From Micromonospora tarapacensis (lineage in GTDB: Bacteria; Actinomycetota; Actinomycetes; Mycobacteriales; Micromonosporaceae): 64,000 bases of DNA. The notes beneath the pieces were generated by a model. It worked only from the letters and a program-made list of their open reading frames with translations, did not search any database and was not told the origin of the DNA. The stretch lies in NCBI RefSeq assembly GCF_019697375.1, contig NZ_JAHCDI010000004.1, positions 1,599,324 through 1,663,323 on the forward strand, given 5' to 3'. This document shows, piece after piece, positions 41,597 through 62,937 of the stretch. Position 1 is the first letter of the stretch. Every line of letters starts with the position of its first letter. The translations under genes were made by a program, and so were the position numbers.

Positions 41597-41667
41597 CACG
41601 TACTCCTGCCATGGGAGGGAGCTGTGAACGGCCGGGGCGGGCGGGGTTTCGCCCGCCCCGGGTGGGG

Positions 41668-42278: not shown

Positions 42279-42303
42279 GATGTGACACACTCTGGAGGTG
42301 CAG

Positions 42304-44199
42304 GTGAACCCGACCATCACGGCGGCGGAGATCGCCCGGCTCGCCGGGGTCGGCCGCGCCGCCGTCAGCAACTGGCGCAAGCGTCACCCCGCCTTCCCGA
42401 CGCCGGTCGGAGGCACGGCCGCCAGCCCCGAGTTCGACCTCATCGCCGTCGAACAGTGGCTCCGCGCGCAGGGCAAGCTGCCCGAGGTGTCCCAGGCCGA
42501 CCGGCTCTGGCGGCACCTCGCCGCCGTCACCGAGAACCCCGCCGCCGCCCTGGCCGACATCGGGGCCCGGCTACTCGCCCGCCAGCGCGGTGGCCGGCCG
42601 CCACGGCAGCAGGCCGAGCCGCCCCTCAAGGCGCTGCTGCCGGAGGTCGACGCCCTCGCCGAGGCCCTCGGCCCACCGGCCGCCTTCGACGAGCTGTGGC
42701 AACGCTTCTCCACCTCCGGTGCCGGCCGCCCGGCGTCCACCCCCGACCAGCTGGCCGACCTGATGACCGCGCTCGCGGCGGCCGGCGACGGCACCGTCTT
42801 CGACCCCGCGGCCGGCACCGGTGCCGCCCTGCGCGCCGCCGTCCGTGCCGGCTGCACCACGGCGTACGGGCAGGAGATCGACCCCGATCTCGCGCGACTG
42901 GCCGGCCTCTGGCTCGCCCTGCACGACGTGCCCGGAGACGTCCGCCCCGGCGACTCGCTGCGCGCCGACGCGCACCCCGGACAGACCGTCGACGCCGTCG
43001 TCTGCCACCCACCGTTCGGTCTCACCAACTGGGGCAGCGAGGAGCTCAGCTACGACCCCCGCTGGGAGTACGGCGGCGTCCCACCCCGCACCGAACCGGA
43101 ACTGGCCTGGGTGCAGCACTGCCTGGCCCACCTGCGCCCCGGCGGGTACGCCGTACTGCTGATGCCGCCCACCGTGGCGGGTCGCCGGGCCGGCCGCCGC
43201 TTCCGCGCCGAACTGCTGCGCCGCGGTGCGCTGCGTGCCGTCATCGCGCTGCCCAGCGGGGTGGCCGCGCCGCACGGCGTACCACTGCACCTGTGGGTCC
43301 TGCGACGGCCCGCGCCCGACGCGCCGGCACCGGCGCGGGCGCTGCTCGTCGACGCCACCGAAGACGACCTGCCCGACCGGATCCTCAGCGCCTGGCAGAA
43401 GTTCACCGCCGGGGAGGAGGTCGAGGAGGCGGGCTTCGCCCGCGCCGTACCCGTGATCGAGCTGCTCGACGAGGACGTCGACCTGACCCCCGCGCGCCGC
43501 CAGCCGACCACCGCCGACGGGCGCACCGACGAGCACCTGCTGCACACCCGCGACCGCCTCGCCGCCGTCGTGGCCGCCCTGCCGGCGCTGATCCCGCACG
43601 CCGAGCCCACGCCCGACGGGGCGAACCCACCGCTGATGACGGTCAACGAGCTGGCCCGAAGCGGCGCGCTGCACCTGCTCGGTCCGGTCCGCACCGCCAC
43701 CGACCCGGCCGACGACGACGATGCCGGCGCACCCGTGCTGACCGTCTCCGACGTGCTCGTCGGCGGCGACGCCTCCGGGGCCGCCGACGACCGGCTCGGC
43801 CAGCGAATCGTGCTGGCCGTCGGGGACGTGGTGGTGCCCATGGTCGCCCGCGCGCTCACCGCCCGGGTGGTCACCACCGCCGGGGCCCTGCTCGGGCGCA
43901 ACCTCTACCTGCTGCGCCCCAACCCGGCCGCCCTGGATCCGTGGTTCCTGGCCGGGCAGCTGCGCACCTCGGCCAACGAGAGGCAGACCTCCAGCCTCTC
44001 CGGCACGCTGCGCTTCGACGTGCGGCGGGCACTGGTGCGCCGGCTGCCGCTGGAGGAGCAACGGGCGTACGGCGAGGCGTTCCGGCGACTGGCTGCCTTC
44101 GAGTCGGCACTGGGCCAGGCCGCCGCTCTCGGTGCCGAGTTGGCCCAGCTCACCGCCGACGGGTTGGCCCGTGGCTCGCTGCGCGCCACAACCGACTGA
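42304..44199 (+). CDS. N6-adenine DNA methylase-like protein with N-terminal HTH
   Basis: About 631 residues from GTG at 42304, five bases after GGAGG (GTG at 42298 is also possible). N-terminal helix-turn-helix: TAAEIARLAGVGRAAVSNWRKRH. HsdM-like methylase core: motif I FDPAAGTGAALR near 166-177 and motif IV VVCHPPFG near 232-239. The first residue of the catalytic (D/N)PP(Y/F) tetrad is His235, which is unusual and may abolish methylation. The C-terminus has type I specificity-like segments (LTVSDVLVGG, RLGQRIVLAVGDVVVPM). Similar solitary proteins are common in actinomycetes; no restriction subunit is adjacent. Confidence 0.87.
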   Translation: MNPTITAAEIARLAGVGRAAVSNWRKRHPAFPTPVGGTAASPEFDLIAVEQWLRAQGKLPEVSQADRLWRHLAAVTENPAAALADIGARLLARQRGGRPPRQQAEPPLKALLPEVDALAEALGPPAAFDELWQRFSTSGAGRPASTPDQLADLMTALAAAGDGTVFDPAAGTGAALRAAVRAGCTTAYGQEIDPDLARLAGLWLALHDVPGDVRPGDSLRADAHPGQTVDAVVCHPPFGLTNWGSEELSYDPRWEYGGVPPRTEPELAWVQHCLAHLRPGGYAVLLMPPTVAGRRAGRRFRAELLRRGALRAVIALPSGVAAPHGVPLHLWVLRRPAPDAPAPARALLVDATEDDLPDRILSAWQKFTAGEEVEEAGFARAVPVIELLDEDVDLTPARRQPTTADGRTDEHLLHTRDRLAAVVAALPALIPHAEPTPDGANPPLMTVNELARSGALHLLGPVRTATDPADDDDAGAPVLTVSDVLVGGDASGAADDRLGQRIVLAVGDVVVPMVARALTARVVTTAGALLGRNLYLLRPNPAALDPWFLAGQLRTSANERQTSSLSGTLRFDVRRALVRRLPLEEQRAYGEAFRRLAAFESALGQAAALGAELAQLTADGLARGSLRATTD

Positions 44200-44657: not shown

Positions 44658-45146
44658 TCAGCTGTCGATGACCCGGAGGATCACTGTTCCGGTGCTGGTG
44701 TCGAGATAGACGAGGCCGTTGTAGTGCGTGGTCCGCACGTCCTCGGCGTACTGGTCGTTGGCGTGCCAGGTGCCGCCGTCGGGCAGGAAGGGTCGTAGCC
44801 CGGTGCTCAACAGTTCGGCCCACCCCGCGGGCGCAGGGCTCCATTCGTAACGCTTCAGGGCCGCCGCCAGGGTGTCGGGCCGTAGTACGACGACGGCCTC
44901 GATGCGGGTGTCGGTCGGTCCGGGCACCCCGGGGTCGTCCGTGCCGGCCGTCGACGCCTGCCAGTGAACCTCGACGAAGTCGCCGAGATTCGGGAACCGA
45001 CTGGCGATCGGTTCCCGATCGGTCCGTACCGGTGGAGGGCTCACGCTGGTGGTCCTTTCTGTCGGCTGCCCGTCGCGGTCGACGCAGCCGGAGAGGGCCA
45101 CGGCAATGGCCGCCACCAGGAGAAGCCCCGCAGGGCGGTCAGCCAT
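44658..45146 (-). CDS. Small lipoprotein linked to type VII-like genes
   Basis: 162 residues from ATG at 45146, which overlaps the upstream gene by eight bases. The signal peptide has lipobox ALSGC (Cys21). The mature part (EAVVVLRPDTLAAALKRYEWSPAP, YEDVRTTHYNGLVYLDTSTGTVILRV) is not a family I can name. Position suggests that it works with the two genes upstream, possibly at the membrane during secretion of the 456-residue protein. Confidence 0.75.
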   Translation of the reverse strand: MADRPAGLLLVAAIAVALSGCVDRDGQPTERTTSVSPPPVRTDREPIASRFPNLGDFVEVHWQASTAGTDDPGVPGPTDTRIEAVVVLRPDTLAAALKRYEWSPAPAGWAELLSTGLRPFLPDGGTWHANDQYAEDVRTTHYNGLVYLDTSTGTVILRVIDS

Positions 45147-46509
45147 CGGAACGTCCGTCCGCACGGTCCTCACCTGGGGCGCTGCGTTCGGGACCGGTGC
45201 CACCGCCGAGGTCGGGCGGCTCGCCGATGGTCCACGTCACGGTGCGCTCCATCTCTCCGTAGGTACGGAACTCCTTGGCCCACCCTAAGGTCGAGAAGCG
45301 GCCGTTGTCGTTGTCGGGCTCACCCGTGGCGATGTCGGCGGCGTTGAGGTTGAAGTTGTACACGTCCTCGGCATGGACTCTGATCTTCATCGTGATCTGG
45401 TCTCCGTCGACCACCACGTCGGACGTACCGTAGATCGCGAAGTCACCGAGGGCCTTCTGCCAATTCTCCGTGGTCGGGTAAAGGCCCATGCTGTCGACCA
45501 TCGCCGGGTCTCCGGTCATCTGGAAGCCGGTCTGCCCGGTCTCCCGGTAGAGCCGCTCCGCTTCCCGCTGCGCGAGCGCGATCTCGTTGTCCACCGCCTG
45601 GCGAATGTTGGGGTCTTCCCGGTAGCCCTCCTCGAAGTCGACACGCATGTCGGTGCCCAACCCGGTGCGGTAGTGGGCATACAGGGCGAGGGCGTCGTCG
45701 AGATCGGGGCGGGCTGCCTGAGCACCCCGCAGGATGGCCTGCCACTTGTTCCAGCCGGCGTAGTCCGCGGGGGTCGGGGTGGCGTTCGGGTCGTACGGGA
45801 AGTCGTTGTCCCACCTCAGTTCGGGAGCGGTCGGTGGGCCGACGTGGTATTTCCCGCTGGCATCGCGGAGGCCGGGCGTCTGGCTGACGATCTTCGCGCT
45901 GAGTTCGGAGTTCGCCAGGAAGTCGGGTAGTAGCCGGTAGGCGGCGGTGAGCTGGGCGACCGCTTCGGTGCGAGCGTCGGTCTCGATCCGGATCGCGTCG
46001 TCGTAGGCGCCGGTTGCGGTCTGCCACAGCCGATCGGCGTCGGCGCGTACCTCCTCGATCTCATCCTGGGCACCGAACTCGATGAGCCAGTCGGTGAAGC
46101 CGGTGGTGGCGCGCAGGTCGTGCCACGCGCGCAGTGCGTCGGACATCCGCACCACCGGAGACTGGGTGGCCACGATCGGCGCGATCAGCACGCGCAGCTG
46201 GCCCTCCGCGGTGATCCCGTCGGCCACCAATTCCTGGGCGCGCGTCTGTGCCCGCACGTAGTCGGCAATGGCCCTGCCGGCCTTCTCGAACCCGTCATGC
46301 AGGCCCTCGACCAGGTCGATGGTCTCCCGGAGACGCTGCTCGTAGAGGCCGGCCGCGTCCGAGACCCACTCCGTCCGACCCCGCAGCCCGTCGAGGTCCG
46401 GCAGGGCCTCCCGGATGATTCCTCTGGTGTTCAGGCATTCCTGTGCCACGACGTTGACGTGCCCAGGCTTCATTTCCTCGATGTACTTCACCGCATCCCG
46501 GTACGCCAT
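45139..46509 (-). CDS. Large type VII-secretion-like substrate
   Basis: 456 residues without a signal peptide. The N-terminal 200 residues are helical with WXG/ESX-like features (LRGRTEWVSDAAGLYEQRLRETIDLVEGLHDGFEKAGRAIADY). The C-terminal part, including YNFNLNAADIATGEPDNDNGRF and LGWAKEFRTYGEMERTVTWTIG, is a module that recurs in actinobacterial secreted proteins of this class. It starts four bases after the small EspC/DUF2580-like gene and overlaps the lipoprotein gene. I see no toxin motif, so whether it is a toxin or a structural secreted protein is open. Confidence 0.75.
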   Translation of the reverse strand: MAYRDAVKYIEEMKPGHVNVVAQECLNTRGIIREALPDLDGLRGRTEWVSDAAGLYEQRLRETIDLVEGLHDGFEKAGRAIADYVRAQTRAQELVADGITAEGQLRVLIAPIVATQSPVVRMSDALRAWHDLRATTGFTDWLIEFGAQDEIEEVRADADRLWQTATGAYDDAIRIETDARTEAVAQLTAAYRLLPDFLANSELSAKIVSQTPGLRDASGKYHVGPPTAPELRWDNDFPYDPNATPTPADYAGWNKWQAILRGAQAARPDLDDALALYAHYRTGLGTDMRVDFEEGYREDPNIRQAVDNEIALAQREAERLYRETGQTGFQMTGDPAMVDSMGLYPTTENWQKALGDFAIYGTSDVVVDGDQITMKIRVHAEDVYNFNLNAADIATGEPDNDNGRFSTLGWAKEFRTYGEMERTVTWTIGEPPDLGGGTGPERSAPGEDRADGRSDG

Positions 46510-46513
46510 GGCG

Positions 46514-46852
46514 TCAATTTGGGCGCTGGTCGGCGGGCTGGAAGGTCGACTCGGTGAGGAACCTGGTCATCTCCGCAGCGATCGCTGCATCGGTGTGCTG
46601 GTAGCCGTCGGATGAGGATTCGACCCGGGTCGACAACGCCGCCAGCAGGGCGATCACATCCTGGTACTGGTCGTGAGCGAATTCGGCGAACGAGCGCATG
46701 GCCCGCGCCATGTCGGGATGGCTGGCCGGGGCGGCGGCCCAGTCGAGCAGGAACAGGTCGACCTGACCCGCCTGAAGTTGCTGAGCCAGGTCGTGCAGGA
46801 TCGCCGCCGTCCCGGTCAGGGACGTCGGGTTGGCCTGGAACCCGTCCAACAC
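46514..46852 (-). CDS. DUF2580/EspC-like small type VII substrate
   Basis: About 112 residues, with a start at GTG 46852 (or TTG 46849): LDGFQANPTSLTGTAAILHDLAQQLQ resembles the opening of ESX-associated DUF2580 proteins (GFxVDPxxL...A..L). The rest is one long helical hairpin ending in a disordered tail. It lies four bases upstream of the large substrate gene, the usual arrangement of a small partner with its larger cargo. No ribosome site stands out, so the exact start is uncertain. Confidence 0.68.
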   Translation of the reverse strand: MLDGFQANPTSLTGTAAILHDLAQQLQAGQVDLFLLDWAAAPASHPDMARAMRSFAEFAHDQYQDVIALLAALSTRVESSSDGYQHTDAAIAAEMTRFLTESTFQPADQRPN

Positions 46853-47067
46853 GTCGTCGCCCCCGTCTTCACTGACGTACCCCGATTCTGCCAACCGGCC
46901 ACCACGAGCGTGAAGGAGCAGCGGCCGAACGGTTGACCGTCGGATATCCGACTGCGGCACGTTGTGGCACGAGGATGACCGCGAGTCTGGCGTGCCGGAG
47001 CGGGTCCAACCGGGCGGACAGGTCGTGCGCATCGGCTCTCGCCCTGCCGGGTCAGTGGCCGGGCACG

Positions 47068-47225: not shown

Positions 47226-48287
47226 GTGACGCTGGGCAGCGTTGGCGGTTACCAACTGGTCAAGCCGCTCGGCGCGGGCGGCATGGGTGACGTGTGGTTC
47301 GCGGTGTCGCCGACGGCGGAGCGGGTCGCCGTCAAGGTGATCAAGAAGCATCTGTTGGCGGCGCCGACCATGCAGGAGCGGTTCGCCGCTGAGGTGGAGA
47401 GCCTCAAGCTCGTCTACGGCTCCCGGGTGGCGCGGCTGGAGAACGCCGACCCCTTCGGCGATCCGGCCTGGCTGGCGGTCGAGTACGTGCCCGGCGCCAC
47501 CCTCCGTCAGCACCTCGACGCCCGGGGGGCGCTGTCGACGCCGCACGCCGCCATGGTCGGCGCGATGCTGGCCGAGGGCCTGACCAACGTGCACCAGGTG
47601 GGTCTGCTGCACCGCGACCTCAAGCCGCAGAACATCATTCTGGGCCCGGACGGCCCCAAACTCATCGACTTCGGCCTCGCCGTTCTCGTCGACCGTCACG
47701 ACTATCTGACCGAGCCGGGCGCGCTGGTGGGTACGCCGGCCTACATGTCGCCGGAGCAGGTACGCGGCGAGCGGGACCTCACCGTCGCCGTGGACGTCTA
47801 CGGTCTCGCCGCGACGTTGGTCTTCGCCCTCACCGGGCACGGCCTCTACCCGCAGAGCAACTCCTGGAATCTGCTGCTGCGCATCACCGAGCCGGGTGAC
47901 CTGCCCGACCTCAGCGGCGTACCCGAGGAGTTGGCGCCGCTGCTGGGCGCGATGCTCGCCCACGACCCGACGGCCCGACCCGGGCTCGACACCGTGCGCC
48001 GACGGCTGCTGACCGTGGCCACCACGGCCGGCGGCGCGAGCGTGGTGGAGCTGCGCCGACAGGTCGCCGCCCTCACCTACGTGGGCGACGCCGAGCTGCT
48101 GGTGCCCCCGGATCTGGACGACCCCCGGCAGGACCCGGAGCAGGTGGCGGCGGTCGAGCCGACGGCCCTGGACGCCGGACCGGCCACCACGAACGTCGAT
48201 CCCGAGGCACCCGCCGCCAGCGGGGTCGACGTGCGGTGGCTGGTCGACAAGCTGCGCCGTCAGTACGCCCGCCGCGCCACCCTGTAG
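47226..48287 (+). CDS. Soluble Hanks-type Ser/Thr protein kinase
   Basis: 353 residues from GTG at 47226 after AGGAGG. All kinase motifs are intact: the glycine loop GAGGMGDV (16-23), Lys37 in VAVKV, HRDLKPQN with catalytic Asp131, DFG at 148-150 and GTPAYMSPEQ. There is no transmembrane segment or PASTA domain. The C-terminal 90 residues are disordered and end in DVRWLVDKLRRQYARRATL, possibly a docking helix. It is followed after 12 bp by the helicase gene. Kinases are part of Pgl/BREX type 2 (PglW) and other antiphage systems, so it may be a switch for the helicase and methylase; that is inference. Confidence 0.94.
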   Translation: MTLGSVGGYQLVKPLGAGGMGDVWFAVSPTAERVAVKVIKKHLLAAPTMQERFAAEVESLKLVYGSRVARLENADPFGDPAWLAVEYVPGATLRQHLDARGALSTPHAAMVGAMLAEGLTNVHQVGLLHRDLKPQNIILGPDGPKLIDFGLAVLVDRHDYLTEPGALVGTPAYMSPEQVRGERDLTVAVDVYGLAATLVFALTGHGLYPQSNSWNLLLRITEPGDLPDLSGVPEELAPLLGAMLAHDPTARPGLDTVRRRLLTVATTAGGASVVELRRQVAALTYVGDAELLVPPDLDDPRQDPEQVAAVEPTALDAGPATTNVDPEAPAASGVDVRWLVDKLRRQYARRATL

Positions 48288-48299
48288 GAGGGCCCACCG

Positions 48300-51107
48300 A
48301 TGAGCACCCCCCAGGACGCGACCTTCGCCCCGGGTTCCCGCATCGTCGTGCGGGACGAGGAGTGGCTGATCCGCAGCGTCAAGACCGGCACCGCCGACGG
48401 CACCATGATCAAAGCGGTCGGAGTGTCCGAGTTCGTGCAGGACGTCGCGGCGACCTTCTTCACCGCGCTGGAGGACATCACGCCGCTGGTGCCCGAGGAG
48501 ACGGAGCTGGTCCAGGACACGTCGTCGCGGTTCCGGCAGAGCCGGCTGTTCCTGGAGGCCGTGCTGCGGCGCACCCCGCTGCCGCGCACCGAGCGGGGCC
48601 TGGCCCTGGCCGACCGGTTCCTGCTGGACCCGCTGACCTACCAGCAGCGCCCCGTCGAGCTGGCGTTGTCCGGCCTCCGGCCGCGGATCCTGCTCGCCGA
48701 CGTGGTGGGCCTGGGCAAGACCCTGGAGGTCGGGCTGATCCTGGCCGAGCTGATCCGCCGGGGGCGGGGTGAGCGCATCCTGGTGGTCTCCCCGCAGCAG
48801 GTGCTGGAGCAGTTCCAGCGGGAGCTGTGGACCCGCTTCGCGATCCCGCTGGTGCGGCTGGACTCGACCGGCATCCAGCGCATCCAGCAGGAGATCCCCG
48901 CCGGGCGGAACCCGTTCACCTACTTCAAGCGGGCCATCATCTCCGTCGACACGCTCAAGGACGCCGGGCAGTTCGGTCACCACCTCGACGCCACCACCTG
49001 GGACGCGGTCGTCATCGACGAGTCACACAACCTGATCAACAAGGGCACCCAGCGCAACGAGCTGGCCCGCCGGCTGGCCGCCAAGACCGACGCGCTGCTG
49101 CTGGCCAGCGCCACCCCGCACAACGGCGACAAGGAGTCCTTCGCGCAGCTGATCTCGCTGCTCGACCCGGCGGCGATCGCCAACGAGAAGGACTACCAGG
49201 CCAGCGACATCGCCCACCTCTACCTGCGCCGCACGAAGATCAGCCCGGAGGTACGCGACCAGATCGGCGACCGCTGGGCCGACCGTGGCCCGTCGGAGGC
49301 GGTGCGCTGCACGGCGACCCCGGTCGAGGAGCAGATCTTCGACGAGCTGACCGATGTGTGGCTGGCCGGCAAGTGGTCCGACGAGGCGATCACCGGGCAG
49401 CACCGACTCTTCCCGTACACCCTGTTGAAGTCGTTTCTGTCCTCGCACCGGGCGCTGCACGAGACGGTGACCAACCGGCGCAGGAAGGCCACCGGCACCG
49501 AGCGGACGGCGCTGGACCGGCTCGCGGAGCTGACCTCCGCGATGACCGACCGGGATTCCAGCAAGCTGCACGGGCTGGTCGAGGAGCTGAAGAGGATCGG
49601 TGTCGGGCGGGGCAGCGACATCCGGGCCGTGGTCTTCTCCGAGCGGGTACCGACGATCAAGTGGCTCGCCGAGGTGGTTCCCGGCATGCTGGGTCTGAAG
49701 CCGACCGCGATCCGGGTGCTGCACGGCGGGGTGGCCGACGCCGACGAGCAGACGATCCTCCAGGAGTTCGAGCTGGCCGGCAGCGACGTCCGGTTGCTGT
49801 TCACCGGCGATGTCGTCTCCGAGGGCGTCAACCTGCACCAGCAGTGCCACCACCTGTTCCACTACGACATCCCGTGGAGCCTGATCCGGATCGAGCAGCG
49901 CAACGGCCGCGTCGACCGCTACGGGCAGCGCCACCGGCCGCAGTTCCGCGCGCTGATCCTCACCTCCGGCCGTGAGGACGCCAAGGACGACCGGGCGGTC
50001 TCCGAGAAGCTGCTCGACCGGGAGGAGACCGCGCACCGCAGCCTCGGCAGCGTCGAGGCCGTGACGGGTCGCTACGACGCGAAGGCCGAGGAGGACCGGT
50101 TGGTCCGCGACCTGCTGGCCGGCAGGACGGTGGAGGAGTCCTACGCGGGCGCCCACGCCGAGATCGACGTGATGGCCGATCTCTTCGGAGAGGTGGGCAG
50201 CGCACCCGTCACGGCGGACGTGCCGCGCGCCCGGGTGCCGAAGCTCTTCGACTCGACGCGGGATTTCGTCGACGCCGCCCTGAACGAGGTGTACCAGGAC
50301 CGGCCGGAGGACCACATCGACCTGCGTCGTGAGGACGAGCTGCTGACCTTCCTCGCCCCCGACGACCTGGTGCACCGGCTCACCGACCTGCCCCGCTCCT
50401 ACCTGCGTGCCCACCGCGAGGGCGAGGACCTGCGCCTGAAGGTCACCTTCGATCGGGCGCTCGCGCAGCGCAAGCTCGACCAGGCCCGGCAGAGCCGTAC
50501 CCCGAGGTGGCCGGAGATCGCGTTCCTCAGCGACGTGCACCCGATGGTCGACTGGCTTGTCGACAAGGTGCTGATCCGGCTGGGTCGCCAGCAGGCCCCG
50601 GTGCTGACCGCCGAGGTGTCCGCGCCGACGTTCCTGATCCAGGGCGTCTACGCCAACCGCCTCGGGCAGCCCACGGTCGTGCAGTGGATGGCCGTCGCCG
50701 GGCTGCCCGGGTCGCCGACGATCCGGCCGATGGACGAGGTGCTGAGGGAGGCCAACGTCGGCCCCACGATGGTCAACCGGGCCGAGCCCATCGCGGTCGG
50801 TCCACTGCGGGCGCTGCTGCCGGCGGCCGTCGAGGTGGCCCGCCAGCACCTCGGTGACAAGGGTGCCGAGTGGGCCGAGACCAACGCCGGGCCGCTGCGC
50901 CGCTACCGGGAGCGGCTGGCCGCCTTCCAGCAGGCCAGCCTCGTCGACGAGCTGACCGGCGCGCACCGGGAGAGGCGACGCCAACGGGTCGACGCCACCG
51001 TCCGGGAGCAGCACGACCTGCTCGACCGCCTGGAGACCGCCGGTGATCCGCTGCTGCGGGTGCTCGCCGTCCTCGTACCGTCGCAGCGAAGCGGAGTGCC
51101 GGCATGA
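48300..51107 (+). CDS. SNF2-family DEAD/DEAH helicase (DISARM DrmD-like)
   Basis: 935 residues. The superfamily 2 motifs are complete: ADVVGLGKTLE (Walker A, Lys140), VIDESHN (Asp240-Glu241), SATPHNG, SEGVNLHQQ and RIEQRNGRVDRYGQ near 530-545. A long C-terminal region of about 350 residues follows. Length and motif wording (LADxVGLGKTxE, DESH, SATPHxG) recall the SNF2 helicase of class 1 DISARM, which accompanies a large adenine methylase as here. DrmA, DrmB and DrmC are not seen in the window. It probably translocates on DNA to discriminate unmodified phage DNA. It is coupled to the methylase by an 80-bp tandem repeat. Confidence 0.92.
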   Translation: MSTPQDATFAPGSRIVVRDEEWLIRSVKTGTADGTMIKAVGVSEFVQDVAATFFTALEDITPLVPEETELVQDTSSRFRQSRLFLEAVLRRTPLPRTERGLALADRFLLDPLTYQQRPVELALSGLRPRILLADVVGLGKTLEVGLILAELIRRGRGERILVVSPQQVLEQFQRELWTRFAIPLVRLDSTGIQRIQQEIPAGRNPFTYFKRAIISVDTLKDAGQFGHHLDATTWDAVVIDESHNLINKGTQRNELARRLAAKTDALLLASATPHNGDKESFAQLISLLDPAAIANEKDYQASDIAHLYLRRTKISPEVRDQIGDRWADRGPSEAVRCTATPVEEQIFDELTDVWLAGKWSDEAITGQHRLFPYTLLKSFLSSHRALHETVTNRRRKATGTERTALDRLAELTSAMTDRDSSKLHGLVEELKRIGVGRGSDIRAVVFSERVPTIKWLAEVVPGMLGLKPTAIRVLHGGVADADEQTILQEFELAGSDVRLLFTGDVVSEGVNLHQQCHHLFHYDIPWSLIRIEQRNGRVDRYGQRHRPQFRALILTSGREDAKDDRAVSEKLLDREETAHRSLGSVEAVTGRYDAKAEEDRLVRDLLAGRTVEESYAGAHAEIDVMADLFGEVGSAPVTADVPRARVPKLFDSTRDFVDAALNEVYQDRPEDHIDLRREDELLTFLAPDDLVHRLTDLPRSYLRAHREGEDLRLKVTFDRALAQRKLDQARQSRTPRWPEIAFLSDVHPMVDWLVDKVLIRLGRQQAPVLTAEVSAPTFLIQGVYANRLGQPTVVQWMAVAGLPGSPTIRPMDEVLREANVGPTMVNRAEPIAVGPLRALLPAAVEVARQHLGDKGAEWAETNAGPLRRYRERLAAFQQASLVDELTGAHRERRRQRVDATVREQHDLLDRLETAGDPLLRVLAVLVPSQRSGVPA

Positions 51108-51187
51108 GTGAGCGTAGCGAGCGAATCATCAGGCTCAGTGTGGTGGTGCCTCATGACGGCACGCAGCGAAGCGGAGTGCCGGCATGA
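51104..51187 (+). CDS. 27-residue coupled micro-ORF, copy 1
   Basis: ATG at 51104 overlaps the helicase TGA; the product begins MSERSERIIRLSVVV and ends QRSGVPA. The AAGCGGAG upstream is a fair ribosome site. It may only pass ribosomes from the helicase to the methylase; no homologous protein is known to me. Confidence 0.4.
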   Translation: MSERSERIIRLSVVVPHDGTQRSGVPA

Positions 51188-51267
51188 GTGAGCGTAGCGA
51201 GCGAATCATCAGGCTCAGTGTGGTGGTGCCTCATGACGGCACGCAGCGAAGCGGAGTGCCGGCATGA
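51184..51267 (+). CDS. 27-residue coupled micro-ORF, copy 2
   Basis: Identical to copy 1. It starts on the stop of copy 1 and its own stop overlaps the methylase ATG (ATGA). The chain of four-base overlaps is continuous from helicase to methylase. Confidence 0.4.
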   Translation: MSERSERIIRLSVVVPHDGTQRSGVPA

Positions 51268-54200
51268 GTTTCGAGTCGCTGACCAACCGTGGCGAGTACC
51301 TTTCCGCGCACTATCTCGCCGAGATCCTGCCCGCCACCCTCAAGGGCGGCCTGGTCAAGCAGTGGGCCGAGCGGGAGAAGGCGGGGGAGGGCACCCCGCG
51401 CACCGGGTTGCGTGGCATGCGCCGGCAGTACTTCGACGCCAGGACGGAGCTGACCGACGTCGAGTTCTTCGACCCGGAGCGGCTGCGCAAGCAGCATCAG
51501 GACGTGCTGCGGGCGCTCGGGTTCGCACCGCAGCCGCAGACCGTCACGGTGGAGCGCGCCGGCCACGAGTACGAGATCCGGGTGGCCCACGCCGAGTTGG
51601 GCACCGGGCACGGCATCGTCGCGCTGGACTGTGGTTGGGCGGTCGACGCCGAGGCGGCGCAGGATCCGGACGACGCCGGCCGCCTGCTCGACCCGCTCAC
51701 CCTGTCGAGCACCGAGACCATCGCCACGGGCGCCAAGCTCGCCTCGCTGCTGTTCGCCGCCGACAGCCCGAAGCTGCGCTATGTGCTGATCCTCAGCGGT
51801 GGTGTGGTCACGCTCGCCGACCGCAGCGTCTGGGGTGAGGGCCGCTACCTGGCGGTCAGCCTGGACACCGCGTACGCCCGCAACGACGACCGGGAGTTGG
51901 ACGTCGTCGCCGCCCTCTTCGGCGCGGATTCGCTGCGTCCACCCGCCGAGGGCGGCACCGAACCCCTCGCCGAGCTGGTCGCCGGCTCCCGCCAGCACGC
52001 GGTCGGCGTGTCCAGCGAACTCCGCGAGGGCCTGAAGGTCTCTGTCGAACTCATCGCCAACGAGGTCCTCGACCAGATCCGGCGGGCCGGCTTCCAGCCG
52101 CAGCAGGTGATGGCCCTCGACGAGCTGGCCAGGGAACTCGCTCGGGAGGCCCTGCGTTACCTGTACCGGATCCTGTTCCTGCTCTACGCCGAGGCGCGTC
52201 CCGAGCTGGGTGTGCTGCCGGTCAACGACCCGCAGTACGTCGAGGGCTACAGCCTGGCCCGCATCGGTGAGCTGGTCTCCCGCCGGCTCGCCCCGTCCGC
52301 CGAGGGCGGCACCCACCTGCACGAGTCACTCGACCTGCTGTTCCGCATGGTCAACGAGGGCCACCGGCCACGCGGCGGCGCGGGGGCCGGCGAGCGGGCC
52401 AGCGAGGGCGAGGGCCTGCGCTTCGAGCCGATGCGCTCGGATCTGTTCCTGCCGGAGAAGACCAGGCTGATCGGCCGGCTGATCGCCGAACCGGGCAGCG
52501 ACCCCGACGACCCGGACGGCCCGAAGATCGACACCCGGCTGCGCAACAAGGTGCTCTACGAGGTGCTGCGCCGGCTGATGCTCACCAGGGGCGGCAAGCG
52601 CCGCCGGGGCGGGTTCATCTCGTACGCGCAGCTCGGCATCAACCAGCTCGGCGCGGTCTACGAGGGCCTGATGTCGTACACCGGGTTCGTCGCCACCGAG
52701 CAGCTCTACGAGGTCGCCAAGAACGGCGACCCGAAGGACGGCTCCTGGATGATCCCTGCCTCCAAGGCCGACGAGTACGACGACGCCGTCTTCGTCACCA
52801 GGGAGGACCCGTACACGGGGGTGCGCAGCCGGGTCAGCTACCAACCCGGCCAGTTCGTCTACCGGCTCGCTGGCCGGGACCGGCAGACCAGCGCCTCCTA
52901 CTACACCCCGCAGTCGTTGACCGAGGTCACCGTCCAGCTCGCCCTGAAATACCGCCTCGACCAGGACGACACTGTCACCCCGGCCCGTGAGCTGTTGGAC
53001 TGGACGATCTGCGAGCCGGCGCTCGGCTCCGGCGCGTTCCTCAACGAGGCGATCAACCAGGTCGCCGCCGAATACCTGCGCCGCCGGCAGACCGAACTGG
53101 AAATCACCCTCGACCCGGAGCAGTACCACCTGGAACTCCAGCGGGTGAAGGCGTACATCGCCCTGCACAACAGCTACGGCGTCGACCTCAACCGCACCGC
53201 CGTCGAGCTGGCCGAGGTGTCGCTCTGGCTCAACGTCATGCACGCCGGCCTCCAAGCCCCCTGGTTCGGCCTGCACCTGCAACGCGGCAACTCGCTCATC
53301 GGCTGCGGACGCAAGACCTACGAGCCCAGGCAGCTCGCCGACAAGTCGTGGCTGACCACCGCCCCGGCCGAGAGGCCGTTCCGGGACGGCCCGACCGACG
53401 AGGGCACCATCCACCACTTCCTGCTCCCCGCCGACGGCTGGGGTGCGGTAGCGGGGGAGCGCGAGGCCCGCGAGCTGGCGCCGGCCGAAACCGCAAAACT
53501 CAAGGCCTGGCGTACGGCGATGAAGCGCACCCCCTCCGCCAAGGGCAAAAACTCGCAGGTCAAACGCTTGCAGGCGCTGGCCGGTCGGGTCGAGTTCCTG
53601 TGGGGGCTGGTGCAGCAGCGCCTCGCCATCTCCGAGCAGGAGATCCGCCGCCACATCCCGGTCTGGGGCGCCGACGACCTGCCGCCGGTCACCGAGGCAG
53701 TGCCCCGCGAGGACATCCTCGCCGACCTGACCGCACCCGGCACCCCGTACTGGCGGCTCAAGACCCTGATGGACGTCTGGTGCGCGCTGTGGTTCTGGCC
53801 GCTGGACAAGGTCGGCCTCCTCGACGGCTCCGACCCCGCCTACCCGGCCGCGCCCGTCCAGGTCGCCCACGTCAAGAACGAGCCAGCGTACGACGCACCG
53901 GTGGTCTACGAGGTCGCAGACCTCCTCGGCAACGTGCAGCCGCAGCAGGTAAAGCTGCCCACCAAGGCGACCGGCACCCGCCGGACCACCGTGGCCGAAC
54001 AACTCCGTAAACAGGTCCCACTGACCAACCTGGACGACTGGCTGACCTTCGCCGAGGCGCTGATCGGCCGACGTGACCTGGACGAGAACACCGAGCGGTT
54101 CTACGGTCAAACGTTCACCAGCCTGAGCGAGATGAGCGACTTCGAGCAAAAACTCGACGGTGTCATCGGCGTGGACTCGCCTTGGACACTTTCGGACCGG

Positions 54201-56180
54201 TTCCCCTGGCTGCTTTCCGCCGACCAACTCGCGGATCAGCACGGCTTCTTTCAATGGGAACTGACATTTGCCCAAGCCTTCGCTAAGGGTGGATTCGATC
54301 TCCAAGTCGGCAATCCGCCGTGGGTTCGCCCGCGATGGCAGGAAGATGTCGTGCTCGCCGAACGTGATCCCTGGTTCGTGCTGACCGAGAGCCCTTCGCC
54401 GGACGCCTGGCATCGCCGGAGGCTGCTGACAGCGACAATCGACACCTTTTTTGCCCAGGAATTCACTGCCAACACCGGATACGTCGCCTTCTACTCTGCT
54501 CCGGCAACCTACGCCTTACTCGCAGGCACCCAGCCGGATTTGTATCGAGCATTCGCGTGCCGTGTGTGGTCCAATCTGTCAGGCGAGGGCGTAGCTGGGC
54601 TCATCCACCCAGACAGTCACTTCAACGGTGCGCGAGAGGGCCGGCTACGCGCGGCGGCCTATGGCCACTTGAGGCTTCACGCGCACTTTCAAAACATGCG
54701 GCTACTCTTCGGGGAGATCAACTGGCGGCAGGAGTTCGGCATACATGTATACGGGCCAATGCGGGGTCATGTCGATTTTGCCCATATTAGCTGGCTGTAC
54801 GCGCCCGAAACGCTGGTCGGATCTCTAGCGCACGATGGACGTGGCCCACTGCCCGGCATGAAGGCCGAAGGCACATGGGACCTACGGCCACATCGAGGCC
54901 GACTTATCACCGTTGACGAGGAGGTACTCGCTGAGTGGCGACTAGTAGTCGGCGAATTCGACGTTCCTGTGCGCCAAACGAGGCTGCTACAGCCAATCAC
55001 CGTGGGCGAGCAGGGTGCGATCGCCGCCATGGCGCATGTGCGCAACCGCCTTGCTGATCGGAAGAACATGATCTCTAGAGGCTTCGATGAGAAGGGTGCC
55101 AAGGATGATGGAACTATCACCTGGCAGGGCTTGGCCTCGCAAGACTGGTCCGAGGTGATCTTGCAGGGGCCACACTTCAGCGTTGCCACCCCGCTAGCCA
55201 AACAGCCCAATATTCCGTGCCGGAGTAACAAGGACTACGAGCCCTGGGATCTGACAGTTGTTGGCGAAGACGCGGTCCCTCGGACGAACTATCGCAGGAG
55301 TGGGGACCGCCGAGGATATCTACGAGCGCAGGATGTGTGGGATGGGCGCCCGTATTCTGATTACTACCGCCTGGTGTGGCGCGAGATGGTGCCGTTGACG
55401 ACGGAGCGGAGCCTGTTTGCAGCCATCATCCCGCCAGGGCCAGCCCATATCCACGCGGTCCGCTCGATGGTGGTAGGTGCCGAGCGTGAGACCGCTCTGC
55501 ACGCAGCATTCTGGGCCTCTTTGCCGTTGGATTACCTACTTCGGATCACCGGTCGTGGACACCTAGATGTGCATAATGCGGGTGTGATGCCCGCGCCTGA
55601 TCCCGATCATCCGCTTGCGTCTGCGGCGTTGCTGCGCGCGCTGCGGCTGAACTGTCTAACCCGCGCATACGGTCCACTGTGGCAGAGGACCTCCGACGAT
55701 CGGTGGAGAGATGAGGAGGGCTGGGCGGTTTGTTGGCCCGCGCTGCCCGAGGCGCAGGCCCTCGGCGATGTCGGACGCACGTGGACTTACCGAGTCCCGC
55801 TCCGGACAGAGCGGGTCCGCCGGTCCGCTTTGGTAGAGCTTGATGCACTCGTCGCCGTCTGGCTCGGAATTGATGACGAAGAGCTGCTGTCGATTTATCG
55901 GGCTCGCTTCCCAGTGCTGAATGAGTATGAGTCCGCGATGTGGTTTGACAGCAATGGACGCAGGATTACGCGGGACTATTATGCGCGTGGAATCAAGCAG
56001 TCTGGCGAAGCGTACGGGCAGCTGATGGCATTTCTTGAAGATCCCGAGGGAAAGCCGGTCCCGGACGGGTACGCGGCACCGTTCTACCGGGCGGATCGGG
56101 AGAATGAGTATCAGCAGGCGCATGCTACGTTCAGTAGGCGGCTTCGGGATGCGATTGACGCGGGTTGGCGGCCGTCGTAG
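51264..56180 (+). CDS. Large Eco57I-like N6-adenine methylase / restriction-modification protein
   Basis: 1638 residues. The helical N-terminal half (1-540) has no clear nuclease motif. Methylase motif I, ICEPALGSGAF, is near 582-592, GVDLNRTAVELAEVSLW near 640-656 and motif IV, VGNPPWVRPRW, near 1014-1024. A target-recognition region of about 500 residues follows. Up to about 54180 the codons have extreme third-position GC; from there to the end they are clearly less GC-biased (runs such as TTTTTTGCCC, GATTACTACC), suggesting a swapped module. The protein resembles type IIG/BREX PglX and DISARM DrmMI methylases. It probably marks host DNA, with the helicase and kinase acting on unmarked DNA. 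Confidence 0.92.
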   Translation: MSFESLTNRGEYLSAHYLAEILPATLKGGLVKQWAEREKAGEGTPRTGLRGMRRQYFDARTELTDVEFFDPERLRKQHQDVLRALGFAPQPQTVTVERAGHEYEIRVAHAELGTGHGIVALDCGWAVDAEAAQDPDDAGRLLDPLTLSSTETIATGAKLASLLFAADSPKLRYVLILSGGVVTLADRSVWGEGRYLAVSLDTAYARNDDRELDVVAALFGADSLRPPAEGGTEPLAELVAGSRQHAVGVSSELREGLKVSVELIANEVLDQIRRAGFQPQQVMALDELARELAREALRYLYRILFLLYAEARPELGVLPVNDPQYVEGYSLARIGELVSRRLAPSAEGGTHLHESLDLLFRMVNEGHRPRGGAGAGERASEGEGLRFEPMRSDLFLPEKTRLIGRLIAEPGSDPDDPDGPKIDTRLRNKVLYEVLRRLMLTRGGKRRRGGFISYAQLGINQLGAVYEGLMSYTGFVATEQLYEVAKNGDPKDGSWMIPASKADEYDDAVFVTREDPYTGVRSRVSYQPGQFVYRLAGRDRQTSASYYTPQSLTEVTVQLALKYRLDQDDTVTPARELLDWTICEPALGSGAFLNEAINQVAAEYLRRRQTELEITLDPEQYHLELQRVKAYIALHNSYGVDLNRTAVELAEVSLWLNVMHAGLQAPWFGLHLQRGNSLIGCGRKTYEPRQLADKSWLTTAPAERPFRDGPTDEGTIHHFLLPADGWGAVAGEREARELAPAETAKLKAWRTAMKRTPSAKGKNSQVKRLQALAGRVEFLWGLVQQRLAISEQEIRRHIPVWGADDLPPVTEAVPREDILADLTAPGTPYWRLKTLMDVWCALWFWPLDKVGLLDGSDPAYPAAPVQVAHVKNEPAYDAPVVYEVADLLGNVQPQQVKLPTKATGTRRTTVAEQLRKQVPLTNLDDWLTFAEALIGRRDLDENTERFYGQTFTSLSEMSDFEQKLDGVIGVDSPWTLSDRFPWLLSADQLADQHGFFQWELTFAQAFAKGGFDLQVGNPPWVRPRWQEDVVLAERDPWFVLTESPSPDAWHRRRLLTATIDTFFAQEFTANTGYVAFYSAPATYALLAGTQPDLYRAFACRVWSNLSGEGVAGLIHPDSHFNGAREGRLRAAAYGHLRLHAHFQNMRLLFGEINWRQEFGIHVYGPMRGHVDFAHISWLYAPETLVGSLAHDGRGPLPGMKAEGTWDLRPHRGRLITVDEEVLAEWRLVVGEFDVPVRQTRLLQPITVGEQGAIAAMAHVRNRLADRKNMISRGFDEKGAKDDGTITWQGLASQDWSEVILQGPHFSVATPLAKQPNIPCRSNKDYEPWDLTVVGEDAVPRTNYRRSGDRRGYLRAQDVWDGRPYSDYYRLVWREMVPLTTERSLFAAIIPPGPAHIHAVRSMVVGAERETALHAAFWASLPLDYLLRITGRGHLDVHNAGVMPAPDPDHPLASAALLRALRLNCLTRAYGPLWQRTSDDRWRDEEGWAVCWPALPEAQALGDVGRTWTYRVPLRTERVRRSALVELDALVAVWLGIDDEELLSIYRARFPVLNEYESAMWFDSNGRRITRDYYARGIKQSGEAYGQLMAFLEDPEGKPVPDGYAAPFYRADRENEYQQAHATFSRRLRDAIDAGWRPS

Positions 56181-56213
56181 CCCGCGCCACCCCCTACCTT
56201 CGAAGGAGACAAG

Positions 56214-56657
56214 GTGACTCCGAGTAACCATCAGAAGCACCAGGCTGGGCGGCATCTTGTGGTGGCCGAGGCGTTGTTGCAGGGATATTCGGCGAGTCTG
56301 GATGGTGCGCGGACCTTCGTGAAGATCAACGGTAGGACGGCTGCCGTGCAGGTGGCGGCGCAGGGTGGGTGGATGATCGCGGACATCGACAAGATGACGG
56401 CGATGTCGGTCGACATCTACGTCCTCGTGGATGTGACCGATGTGCGTCGGGACTTCTACGTCGTGCCCGGCGGTGAGCTGCGGGCCGGGGTGCGGGCGCG
56501 GCACGAGGGATTCATGGCAAGTGTTGGCGGTGTCCGGCCGCGTAACCCGGACAGCCGGCACACGGCGATCTACCCGTCGAACGTGGAGACGTGGCGTAAC
56601 CGGTGGTCGCTGTTCGACCACGAGACGCAGCCCGCCGGTGGAGACGCGACCGCCTGA
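56214..56657 (+). CDS. Small protein with nuclease-like fold (tentative)
   Basis: 147 residues from GTG at 56214 after AAGGAGACAAG, 33 bp downstream of the methylase and probably in its operon. The order of elements (GRHLVVAEALLQGYSASL, GRTAAVQVAAQGGWMIADIDK, DIYVLVDVTDVRRDFYVVPG) resembles small PD-(D/E)XK-like proteins with a DUF4365-type arrangement. However, the expected D...ExK set is not clean: VQV stands where ExK is usual. It could be an inactive or atypical nuclease, or an accessory factor of the modification system. Confidence 0.62.
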   Translation: MTPSNHQKHQAGRHLVVAEALLQGYSASLDGARTFVKINGRTAAVQVAAQGGWMIADIDKMTAMSVDIYVLVDVTDVRRDFYVVPGGELRAGVRARHEGFMASVGGVRPRNPDSRHTAIYPSNVETWRNRWSLFDHETQPAGGDATA

Positions 56658-56711
56658 TCGGTCGTGCAGCGGGAGCGCATCAGCTGGCTGCGCTCTCGCC
56701 TGGTGTACGGC

Positions 56712-56906
56712 TCAGTGCGGGGTCTTGCTGGACCGGACGAAGCGGGTCCACGCGGCGGGGGAGAAGGTGAGGGCAGGCCCGGCCGGGTTCTTGCTGTCGC
56801 GCACCGCGATGAAGCCGGGCAGGTTGTCGGCGACCTCGACGCAGTTGCCGCCGTTGTCGCCGCTGCGGGTGCTCTTGCGCCAGTTGGCGCCGGTCAGCTC
56901 AGCCAT
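56712..56906 (-). CDS. DUF397 protein
   Basis: 64 residues with the DUF397 signature (WRKSTRSGDNGGNCVEVAD, IAVRDSKNPAGPALTFSPAAWTRFV). These proteins are normally encoded just downstream of Scr1/WhiJ-type regulators, as here (eight-base overlap), and are thought to act as their partner or antagonist in development and secondary metabolism. Confidence 0.93.
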   Translation of the reverse strand: MAELTGANWRKSTRSGDNGGNCVEVADNLPGFIAVRDSKNPAGPALTFSPAAWTRFVRSSKTPH

Positions 56907-57780
56907 GATGGACCTCTCCGACGATCTTGTTGATCAGTTGCTTCGATTGTTGCTCATCGAGGGCCAAAGACGTGAGGCTCGTCCACACTTCCTCGTAGAT
57001 GGCGAGTTCTTCCTTGCGGTCGAGGTAGAGCGCCCCGGTCAGCGACTCGCTGTAGATGACCGATGGATCGGGCTCGACCCGGTTGCGGAGCGGGAAGTCC
57101 AGCATGACGAAGGGACCAGCGACCGCGCCGAAGTGCAGCCCTGCGGCGAGAGGAGTGACCCGGATCGAGACGTGCGGGAGACCGCCCATGTTGAGCAGGT
57201 GTCGTAGCTGCTCGACCATCGTGGCGGGACTGCCGACAACCCGCAGGAGAACTGCCTCGGCGAGAACGACCTCGAACTGGGGTGCGGCGGGAAGGCGACG
57301 TTCCAGGAGCGTCTGACGTTGAAGTCGCACTTCAACCAGCCGCTCCCGCTCGTCCTCCGAGATGCGTGATCGGTGCTGGTATACGCCATGGGCGTAACCC
57401 CTGGTCTGGAGTAGCCCGGGTATCAGGGTGTCGTCGTACTCGCGGAGGCGGGAGGCGGCGGCTTCGAGGCCGACGTACATCTCGAACCAGTCTGGGATGG
57501 CGTCGCCGTAGGAGTGCCACCAGCCCTTGGCCTTGGTTTCGGAGGCCAGAGCGGTGAGGGCGGCGGTCAGCTCGGGGGTGGCGGCGTACAGCTCGCAGAG
57601 GGCCTTGACGTCGACGGCGCGGGTCGGGCCGAGGCCGGTCTCGATGCGCCACATCTTTTGCCGGCTGCACTGCATGGCCTCGGCTGCGCCGTCGAGGGTC
57701 ATGCGTGCTTCGGTGCGCAGGTCGCGCAGCGCCCGCCCGAGCTGTCGCCTGGGGACTGTCGATCCCATGTCGTCGGCCAT
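56899..57780 (-). CDS. Scr1/WhiJ-type helix-turn-helix regulator (DUF5753)
   Basis: 293 residues from ATG at 57780. The XRE-type helix-turn-helix (GRALRDLRTEARMTLDGAAEAMQCSRQKMWRIETG, about 15-49) is followed by the DUF5753 domain (IPDWFEMYVGLEAAASRLREYDDTLIPGLLQT...FVMLDFP). The gene overlaps the DUF397 gene, and the two make a standard actinobacterial pair. Its 5' end and promoter (57751-57842) reappear at 58969-59056 as a remnant of a second copy. Confidence 0.93.
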   Translation of the reverse strand: MADDMGSTVPRRQLGRALRDLRTEARMTLDGAAEAMQCSRQKMWRIETGLGPTRAVDVKALCELYAATPELTAALTALASETKAKGWWHSYGDAIPDWFEMYVGLEAAASRLREYDDTLIPGLLQTRGYAHGVYQHRSRISEDERERLVEVRLQRQTLLERRLPAAPQFEVVLAEAVLLRVVGSPATMVEQLRHLLNMGGLPHVSIRVTPLAAGLHFGAVAGPFVMLDFPLRNRVEPDPSVIYSESLTGALYLDRKEELAIYEEVWTSLTSLALDEQQSKQLINKIVGEVHHG

Positions 57781-58069
57781 CAGCCACCCCTCTCGTGTAG
57801 CGTTTTGTTACATCCGGACGCCATTGGCGAAACGTGGAACGGTTGCTCGATAATTGATTGCCCCGAGCGCCGTTCGCGCAAGAGCGAATACCGTCTGACG
57901 ATACAAGACACCCCCGACAGCAGCCACCACCACGCAATTCCCATAAGCGCAAGTGGCGGACCTCGGGCTTGCGGCGCACGCACCCGCGCGGCTCTTACTG
58001 CTCCGAAGTGGACGAACAGGTGAGGTGGCGAATGCGATCTCATCGATAGATTGACCGGTCTGCCTATGG

Positions 58070-58348
58070 GTGGGCGAGGCAGATGCGTTGGTGGAGGTGA
58101 GGCATGAGGTCGAGGTGGATCCCGGCCTGCTGCCCGCCACGCTCGCGCGCGACGGCGTCGTCCTGATCCAGCAGGGGTCCGTCGCTGCGGTCAGGGCGCT
58201 ACTTGAGAGCTGGACGGTGCCGGTCAGCCATCCTCACCAGGTGGCCGACGGACTGACAGCCATTGCGCCCCGCGTTGTCGAAGATGCCGCCGCCGTCCGA
58301 CGCGGCCTTTCCACAGACGATCCGAGCCGTCATCGAGGCGTACCCTGA
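58070..58348 (+). CDS. Unknown small protein, probably frameshifted near its end
   Basis: 92 residues from GTG at 58070 in the present frame (VRHEVEVDPGLLPATLARDGVVLIQQGSVAAVRALLESWTV). Coding bias and a helical continuation (IRAVIEAYPEPEPLLRAILDDHRMQSAAYRQVIAALL) go on in another frame from about 58290 to 58445, so the intact protein would be about 125 residues. The likely indel is in GCCGCCGCCGTCC at about 58290. It ends 25 bp before the NUDIX gene, so the two may be one operon. No family recognised. Confidence 0.55.
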   Translation: MGEADALVEVRHEVEVDPGLLPATLARDGVVLIQQGSVAAVRALLESWTVPVSHPHQVADGLTAIAPRVVEDAAAVRRGLSTDDPSRHRGVP

Positions 58349-58470
58349 ACCCGAGCCGCTGCTGCGTGCCATCCTCGACGACCATCGAATGCAGTCTGCT
58401 GCGTATCGACAGGTTATTGCCGCTCTTCTGGTGACTCCGAGCTGACGCCGCACCCTGGAAGGAATGTCCT

Positions 58471-58929
58471 ATGACCGAGCGACCGCCGTACCTGGTCGAG
58501 AGAAGCCCGGGGTACTTCGAATATCAGCTGCCGATCTCGGTCAAGCTGGTGATCGACCACCATGGCCGGGTGCCGCTGTTGCGCAACGAGCGTGACGAGT
58601 GGGAGCTGCCCGGTGGGAAGCTCGAAGTAGGCGAGACACCCGAGGACGGCGTCTGCCGGGAGGTTGCCGAAGAACTCGGGCTGACCATCGAAGCAGTCGA
58701 CATCATCGACTCCTGGGTCTATGAGATCACGCCGGTCCGGCACGTGTTCATCGTGAGCTTCGGCGCCACCTACGTCGGCGACGAGGACCTCGTCCATTCG
58801 GCTGAGCACAAGGAACTCGGCGTGTTCACCTACGACCAGGTGTCAAGCCTGCACATGCCTGAGCCCTACAAGCGCACTGTTCGTCGCTGGCACGAGCGCC
58901 GACTGACCGGGCGATCGGTCCCCACCTGA
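58471..58929 (+). CDS. NUDIX hydrolase (small)
   Basis: 152 residues. The NUDIX box is complete: GGKLEVGETPEDGVCREVAEELGL (about 48-71) with the REVAEE metal ligands. Core strands are ISVKLVIDHHGRVPLLRNERDEWELPGG. It hydrolyses a nucleoside diphosphate linked to some moiety; the substrate is not deducible. It follows the small unknown gene and is 90 bases upstream of the deletion scar. A second, unrelated NUDIX gene lies 3.4 kb away. Confidence 0.92.
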   Translation: MTERPPYLVERSPGYFEYQLPISVKLVIDHHGRVPLLRNERDEWELPGGKLEVGETPEDGVCREVAEELGLTIEAVDIIDSWVYEITPVRHVFIVSFGATYVGDEDLVHSAEHKELGVFTYDQVSSLHMPEPYKRTVRRWHERRLTGRSVPT

Positions 58930-59056
58930 TCTGCGGGCCCGGCGCATCCGCCGGCTGCGCTCCCGGCTGGAGACTGTCGATCCCATGTCGCCGGCCATCG
59001 GCCACCCTCTGTTGCGTCTTGTCACATCCGGACGCCATCGGTGAAACGTGGAATGG
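58925..59056. repeat. Deletion scar of a second DUF397/Scr1 gene pair
   Basis: 58927-58970 resembles the sequence beyond the DUF397 stop (56655-56702; for example GGCTGCGCTC). 58969-59056 is close to 90 percent identical by eye to the first codons and promoter of the Scr1 gene (57751-57842). Everything in between, about 1 kb, is missing. The remainder to 59406 shows no gene. Confidence 0.7.
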
Positions 59057-60299: not shown

Positions 60300-60320
60300 T
60301 GACGTGCCTGCGTCAGCCCG

Positions 60321-60884: not shown

Positions 60885-60890
60885 CGCTGC

Positions 60891-62267: not shown

Positions 62268-62282
62268 CCGTCAGCCGTCCTG

Positions 62283-62933: not shown

Positions 62934-62937
62934 GGAC

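Follow-up and report, generated by a model that had tools for sequence, protein, structure and literature searches.

A probable ARMADA Type II operon with an added kinase in Micromonospora tarapacensis, and the defence systems that alternate behind its HsdM-like neighbour

ARMADA Type II was described in Escherichia coli as a set of four genes that gives direct protection and for which all four Arm proteins are needed, according to the main text of the published account (Bell et al. 2025, PMC12458937). In that text, ArmA is BrxHII/RapA-like, ArmB is PglX-like with an NPPW motif, ArmC is YprA-like with a C-terminal nuclease and ArmD is GajB-like with a RelE-like start. The operon analysed here lies in a stretch of 64,000 nucleotides (C4:1599324-1663323, contig NZ_JAHCDI010000004.1) within the 6.9 Mb genome of Micromonospora tarapacensis, and this whole stretch is called the window below. 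An earlier note on the window had proposed a minimal DISARM/Pgl-like system made up of a kinase, an SNF2 helicase, an Eco57I-like methylase and a small protein. We consider it likely that the operon is instead the front part of an anti-phage system, a kinase-bearing ARMADA Type II, of which it contains kinase, ArmA and ArmB; this judgement applies to the explanation as a whole.

The operon and its downstream half

Four open reading frames (ORFs) follow one another head to tail on the plus strand. Their features are:

47226..48287, plus strand: kinase 1, a Hanks-type Ser/Thr kinase of 353 residues, whose linker varies and whose C-terminal tail carries a motif (Pfam Pkinase, 129.7 bits)
48300..51107, plus strand: ArmA, an SNF2/RapA-like helicase of 935 residues (GLGKT at 137, DESH at 240)
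51082..51269, plus strand: 80-bp tandem repeat of 2.3 copies at the ArmA-ArmB junction, with two 27-codon mini-ORFs and ATGA overlaps
51264..56180, plus strand: ArmB, a large N6-adenine methylase of 1638 residues (EPALGSGAF, the S-adenosylmethionine motif, at 584; NPPW at 1017)
54324..56180, plus strand: variable C-terminal half of ArmB, residues 1021-1638, the presumed target-recognition region, delimited by column variability
56214..56657, plus strand: P0004, a small, sporadic ORF of 147 residues, the first cargo gene between ArmB and ArmC and not part of the core

Among 151 genomes of the genus, that of M. tarapacensis included, ArmA matches at E <= 1e-30 are found in 37 genomes, 23 of them with 84-100% identity (the close group), together with 7 places at 53-56% (the middle group), 8 at 44-48% and 2 weak ones at 32%. 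The surroundings of ArmA were compared in 39 regions, for which the genes of the relatives were called with a home-made codon-based caller. The methylase is the next gene after the helicase in 38 of these, with a more distant methylase-like gene taking its place in L064, and the gene directly before ArmA is a kinase throughout the close (23) and middle (7) groups and also in one distant region (L058). As the order of kinase, helicase and methylase is kept in 23/23 close genomes, these are real genes rather than chance frames. The four ORFs of the earlier note and the domains that it assigned to the first three, which Pfam confirms, are upheld, but the small ORF falls outside the conserved set. 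It has a near full-length match in only 4 of 38 relatives (L032, L033, L043, and L036 at 38% identity) and a match in pieces in three (L035, L037, L038), while 31 have none above 40 bits.

Among the PADLOC models, ArmA scores 175 bits with BrxHII and 275 bits with DrmD. Its best solved relative is RapA (96 bits), and its nearest named relatives are from Micromonospora. ArmB is assigned to Eco57I by Pfam and scores 936 bits with the PADLOC model REase_MTase_IIG and 149 bits with DrmMI; a comparison with solved structures gave no match, and for the N-terminus no Foldseek match with E < 0.001 was obtained. Across 22 ArmB sequences, mean column variability is 0.20-0.45 in the C-terminal half and 0.02-0.16 in the part upstream of it. 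The G+C content is 0.608 at positions 54001-56000, most of which belong to the variable half.

The set continues past the window end and is therefore not minimal. An ArmC/DruE-like helicase starts on the same strand 180 bp beyond it, and behind this lies ArmD, a UvrD-type helicase that in this genome has 718 residues with UvrD domains. The relatives show the order kinase-ArmA-ArmB-ArmC-ArmD, which is that of ARMADA Type II and not of a DISARM/Pgl-like type. The A-B-C-D order is kept in every locus for which ArmB and ArmC were placed on one contig. ArmC directly follows ArmB in three close loci (L039, L041, L042), in all seven middle-group loci and in most distant ones, and a UvrD-type helicase follows ArmC wherever the stretch extends far enough. 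Intact ArmC of the relatives is about 2100-2250 residues long and contains DEAD, Helicase_C and MrfA-type zinc domains; its best PADLOC models are those of DruE (311 bits). In M. tarapacensis itself, ArmC is in two pieces, corresponding to residues 4-210 and 209-2145. The break, at L114:9157-10770, holds an insert of about 1.7 kb that includes a DDE transposase. Since the Walker A motif lies in the first piece and the DEFH box in the second, the insertion sequence separates the two motifs. With ArmC split in this way, restriction is probably off in this strain, whereas DNA modification is probably still working.

The proposal that kinase, helicase, methylase and small protein form a self-sufficient minimal system draws on the position and state of ArmC. 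ArmC is not the next gene in 16 of the 19 close genomes measured, and its break in this genome would mean that three genes may work alone. However, all but one of the 23 close genomes have ArmC at an identity of at least 80%, and in the remaining one (G150) the contig stops inside ArmB. The loci in which ArmC stands directly behind ArmB and the sporadic occurrence of the small protein also speak against a minimal system, which we regard as improbable. The lowest probability is given to descent from DISARM class 1 or BREX type 2/Pgl with loss of components. The DrmD and DrmMI models do match ArmA and ArmB, and DrmA-DrmB lie upstream of ArmA in some distant relatives. Nevertheless, the DISARM and BREX profile check that the earlier note had suggested went against such membership, with both models far below their curated cut-offs: NCBIfam DISARM DrmD scores 296.8 against a cut-off of 610 and NCBIfam BREX PglW kinase 50.9 against 990, while true DISARM class 1 loci of the genus reach 1427 bits (DrmD) and 1701 bits (DrmMI). 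The search of the whole genome gave a single, partial match of 19.6 bits for DrmA (PDLC02575; DrmB and DrmC were not covered by this search) and none for PglZ (PF08665), in keeping with the earlier note, and a DruE-like ArmC is present instead. On the profile scores and the lack of a DrmA or PglZ find, the minimal DISARM/Pgl system was rejected. ArmB, moreover, fits the type IIG model best. That the locus is a type IIG restriction enzyme, with kinase and helicase as unrelated passenger neighbours, we regard as very improbable. What is retained of the original description is a defence operon that combines a DrmD-like helicase and a DrmMI/PglX-like methylase with an added soluble kinase.

Several smaller features accompany the ARMADA Type II genes. 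Every unit of the 80-bp repeat is a 27-codon ORF with ATGA overlaps to its neighbours, which results in a stop/start chain running from ArmA to ArmB. An origin of the unit from a common genome repeat was rejected, as its 25-base core occurs at these two places only (allowing at most one mismatch). P0004, for which the earlier note had suggested a possible nuclease fold, matches no PADLOC or Pfam family, and its predicted structure is of low confidence, with a mean predicted local distance difference test (pLDDT) score of 42. It opens the cargo of about 8 kb between ArmB and ArmC of this genome (window 56214-63323 and L114), which further contains a DUF397-like gene, an HTH_31/DUF5753 regulator, two NUDIX-like genes, a nucleotidyltransferase-like gene and a histidine phosphatase/hydrolase, some of these being named from the sequence alone. 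The ORF after ArmD reads as serpin-like, judged from its sequence alone. No Rfam family matches within the window at gathering thresholds.

The kinase before ArmA

The kinase before ArmA is a trait of one ArmA clade. It lies upstream in 42 of the 57 rows of an ArmA tree (a quick build with a long-branch warning, in which at least two rows, L065 and L097, are one genome), and on this tree its presence changes only twice, compared to a shuffled mean of 13.6 and with none of 500 shuffles that low. One of the two changes is L107, for which only about 360 bases of contig are available upstream. The distances between kinases follow those between ArmA proteins in the 23 close loci (rho 0.67, a value reached in 0 of 500 shuffles). 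The VAVK-type catalytic lysine, HRDLKPxN and DFG are intact in 45/45 kinase-1 sequences. Of the 45 loci, 44 have [LMIV]R..Y[AG] in the kinase tail (42 of the 43 distinct sequences), and none of 30 kinases from other systems matches this wide pattern. The pattern was chosen post hoc, after inspection of the tails, while the narrower LR..YA matched 21 of 45.

The kinase is a departure from ARMADA Type II as published and marks the operon as a new version of that system. The word "kinase" is absent from the main text of Bell et al. 2025 (PMC12458937), the supplements lying outside this search, and a full-text search of the literature gave no paper that pairs "ARMADA Type II" with "kinase"; BREX, kinase, DISARM and ARMADA are named together in one (PMC12904381). 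A second kinase directly follows ArmD in 8 of 10 ArmC-ArmD regions of close relatives (L124-L133).

Several points weigh against this identification of the operon and of its kinase as part of the system. The approximate gap between ArmB and ArmC is 4.7-35.6 kb in 16 of the 19 close genomes measured, this genome included, and nil in three, so that the strict operon of the published system is not contiguous in these genomes. ArmC is identified by profile and domain matches together with gene order, as opposed to placement in a YprA tree. No solved relative was found for its C-terminal part of 281 residues at E up to 5, which leaves the Vsr-type nuclease end unconfirmed, nor for the N-terminus of ArmD, which is RelE-like in the published system. 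The role of the kinase is an interpretation, and its agreement with ArmA in distances may be attributable to species history alone. Finally, relatives of ARMADA II that are more distant, 15 of the 57 ArmA loci, are without the kinase. DrmA-DrmB precede ArmA in eight of these (five from the genus and three from Mycobacteriaceae), an unrelated gene pair does so in two, and neither is present in five, one of which is at a contig end.

A composite of DISARM and ARMADA, with DrmA and DrmB directly before ArmA-ArmB, was observed in L059-L063, L104, L105 and L113, including Mycolicibacterium.

The HsdM-like gene P0005 and the systems behind it

As delimited by the earlier note, the set began with the kinase and omitted an HsdM-like gene, although this gene stands directly before the kinase in many relatives. 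The features upstream of the kinase are:

42298..44199, plus strand: P0005, HsdM-like, 633 residues, partner or anchor of the locus (Pfam N6_Mtase, 115 bits)
38302-42198, minus strand: divergent block beside P0005, consisting of an SMC/AAA ATPase (827 residues) and a DUF4352 protein

Orthologues of P0005 are found in 57 genomes of the genus, in pieces in G010, G014 and G081; weaker matches in G032 and G105 were left out, and the context was seen for the 51 of the 57 that enter the tree. CHPPFG takes the place of NPPF as motif IV in 50 of the 51 orthologues, and P0005 may for this reason not methylate. In the window, minus-strand ORFs of 456, 172 and 162 residues at 44658-47032 separate it from the kinase, the first two of which match nothing in PADLOC, Pfam or NCBIfam. 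Within ARMADA II, the distances of P0005 follow those of ArmA (rho 0.62, 17 loci) similarly to those of the kinase, and independent movement of P0005 there is thus unsupported.

Four large systems are found behind P0005. Close copies were defined by the identity of one protein each: at least 84% for ArmA of ARMADA II (23 copies), at least 88% for HsdM of the type I restriction-modification (R-M) system (13), at least 85% for the SNF2 protein of ARMADA I (13) and at least 84% for DrmD of DISARM class 1 (9). For 52 of these 58 copies (ARMADA II 19/23, type I 13/13, ARMADA I 12/13, DISARM 8/9), P0005 is found upstream in the same orientation, at most 16 kb away; the contig of the DISARM copy without it starts 2.5 kb from that copy. 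Each of the 58 copies comes from a different genome, whereas 7.1 genomes with more than one are expected at random and 22 of 200000 draws gave none, a calculation in which kinship is ignored. Relatives of the systems that fall under the cut-offs do co-occur, for example in G025, G045 and G137. With the cut-offs used, the locus behaves as a set of alternative alleles, 58 genomes each having one of the four large systems.

Two readings of P0005 were weighed, and the one that we hold to be rather probable is that P0005 is a mere recombination anchor, the systems being exchanged at a hotspot without making use of it. When loci with different systems were compared in six pairs, DNA identity of 91-96% was seen to run across P0005 and ends at most about 60 bp from its stop codon, with weaker patches of identity farther on in two of the six, and small cassettes are common to loci with different systems. 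System type is almost random on the P0005 tree of 51 rows (ARMADA II 17, type I 13, ARMADA I 10, DISARM 8, other 3), with 25 changes compared to a shuffled mean of 28.5; 9 of 200 shuffles needed no more than this. The altered motif IV is in keeping with an anchor too, as are the 4 of 23 close ARMADA II copies, together with the middle and distant groups, that do without P0005. However, of the 58 genomes that carry one of the four systems, 54 have P0005, compared with only 3 of the 93 others, and DISARM clusters on its tree (5 changes, as low in 4 of 500 shuffles). In addition, the ATPase and the DUF4352 gene are present in 11 and 12, respectively, of 12 left flanks across system types, but the sequence farther left differs, which means that the P0005 locus is not a fixed chromosomal site. 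A more tentative possibility, which we consider rather unlikely, is that P0005 is a catalytically altered DNA reader common to four interchangeable, mutually exclusive kinase-bearing modules, with the kinases coupling reader and module. Bacteria would then swap the effector module (ARMADA II, the ARMADA I kinase-helicase fusion, DISARM class 1 or type I R-M) behind a constant P0005.

Some candidates for the parts of this locus were discarded. The loci with HsdM, HsdS and an HsdR-kinase were not accepted as MADS, because the Pfam families HsdM_N, HSDR_N and Methylase_S identify them as type I R-M. The common second kinase was rejected as the right-hand bracket of an exchange slot, since its ARMADA II and type I copies separate on its tree, in which L120 and L172 were counted as type I R-M. 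Insertion directed by a tRNA was rejected as well: a tRNA-Thr lies at 36549 of the window, but the 11 corresponding left flanks are without a tRNA.

Kinases recur in all four systems. One is present in 12 of 13 type I R-M stretches, the remaining stretch (L167) being too short to tell, and a second HsdM and/or a kinase follows DrmC in 6 of 8 DISARM loci, L117 and L173 being too short; the second HsdM has CNPPF in 5/5. In the one ARMADA I copy that was scanned (L118:11284-17568, minus strand), a kinase is fused to the N-terminus of a YprA-like helicase (Pkinase 29-291, DEAD 444-628), and the other nine ARMADA I copies are 79-86% identical to this copy. A DISARM class 1 set is opened by an OGG-like protein (PF21790) at L134:2134-3021 (plus strand), with the second HsdM and a kinase behind it.

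Ten P0005 loci from other genera of the same family were compared. Three have a contiguous ARMADA II with the second kinase after ArmD (L175, L178, L184), two have DISARM (L176, L179), two have type I R-M (L177, L180) and three have a kinase directly behind P0005 (L181-L183). Motif IV is more variable in these ten, with CHPPF in two, SPPF in one, NPPF in two and nothing recognisable in five. Elsewhere, P0005 is followed by an nSTAND-WD40 protein (L121:1711-6141, minus strand) or by a helicase with an MTES_1575 nuclease domain (L147:4055-9511, minus strand). Distant type I R-M relatives (66-71%) adjoin a P0005 paralogue (about 45-51%) in many genomes, for example G085, G027, G072 and G089, and were not counted.

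We do not claim that the exchange locus is undescribed, but it is more surprising than the operon itself. The alternative systems behind P0005 are a natural experiment on mutual exclusion and on a possible common component.

Proposed working and comparison with known systems

In the working that we propose as most probable, ArmB would mark the host DNA at a strain-specific site, with methylation serving as the self mark. ArmA, ArmB, ArmC and ArmD together would act on unmarked incoming DNA and directly stop its replication, with ArmC as the putative cutter. The added kinase may dock on a partner via its C-terminal tail and gate the system by phosphorylation. As one actinobacterial clade has a kinase with a distinctive tail motif, phospho-control of a restriction-like system becomes testable.

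BREX type 2/Pgl (see PMC12839542) also pairs a kinase with a large adenine methylase but has PglZ, for which this genome gave no match, and the kinase of the window is a single-domain protein far below the PglW cut-off. DISARM class 1 shares the DrmD-like helicase and the DrmMI-like methylase, whereas here the scores in the window are below the cut-off, no DrmA was found in the genome and a DruE-like ArmC is present instead. Druantia has in common the DruE models that fit ArmC best; the partners here, however, are ArmA, ArmB and ArmD, while DruH and the other Druantia genes were outside the search. The type IIG/IIL enzymes DrdV, MmeI and BpuSI resemble ArmB in a likely order of nuclease-like fold, helical part, methylase and recognition region, but in ArmB the nuclease lysine seems to be lost, and ArmB works within a multi-gene set. 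ARMADA Type II, as presented in the main text of its description (PMC12458937), agrees with the locus in the kinds, order and motifs of ArmA, ArmB, the YprA/DruE-like ArmC and the UvrD-type ArmD. The locus differs from it in the kinase before ArmA, the cargo between ArmB and ArmC and the ArmC broken in this strain, and most of its relatives differ further in the second kinase after ArmD (8/10 regions).
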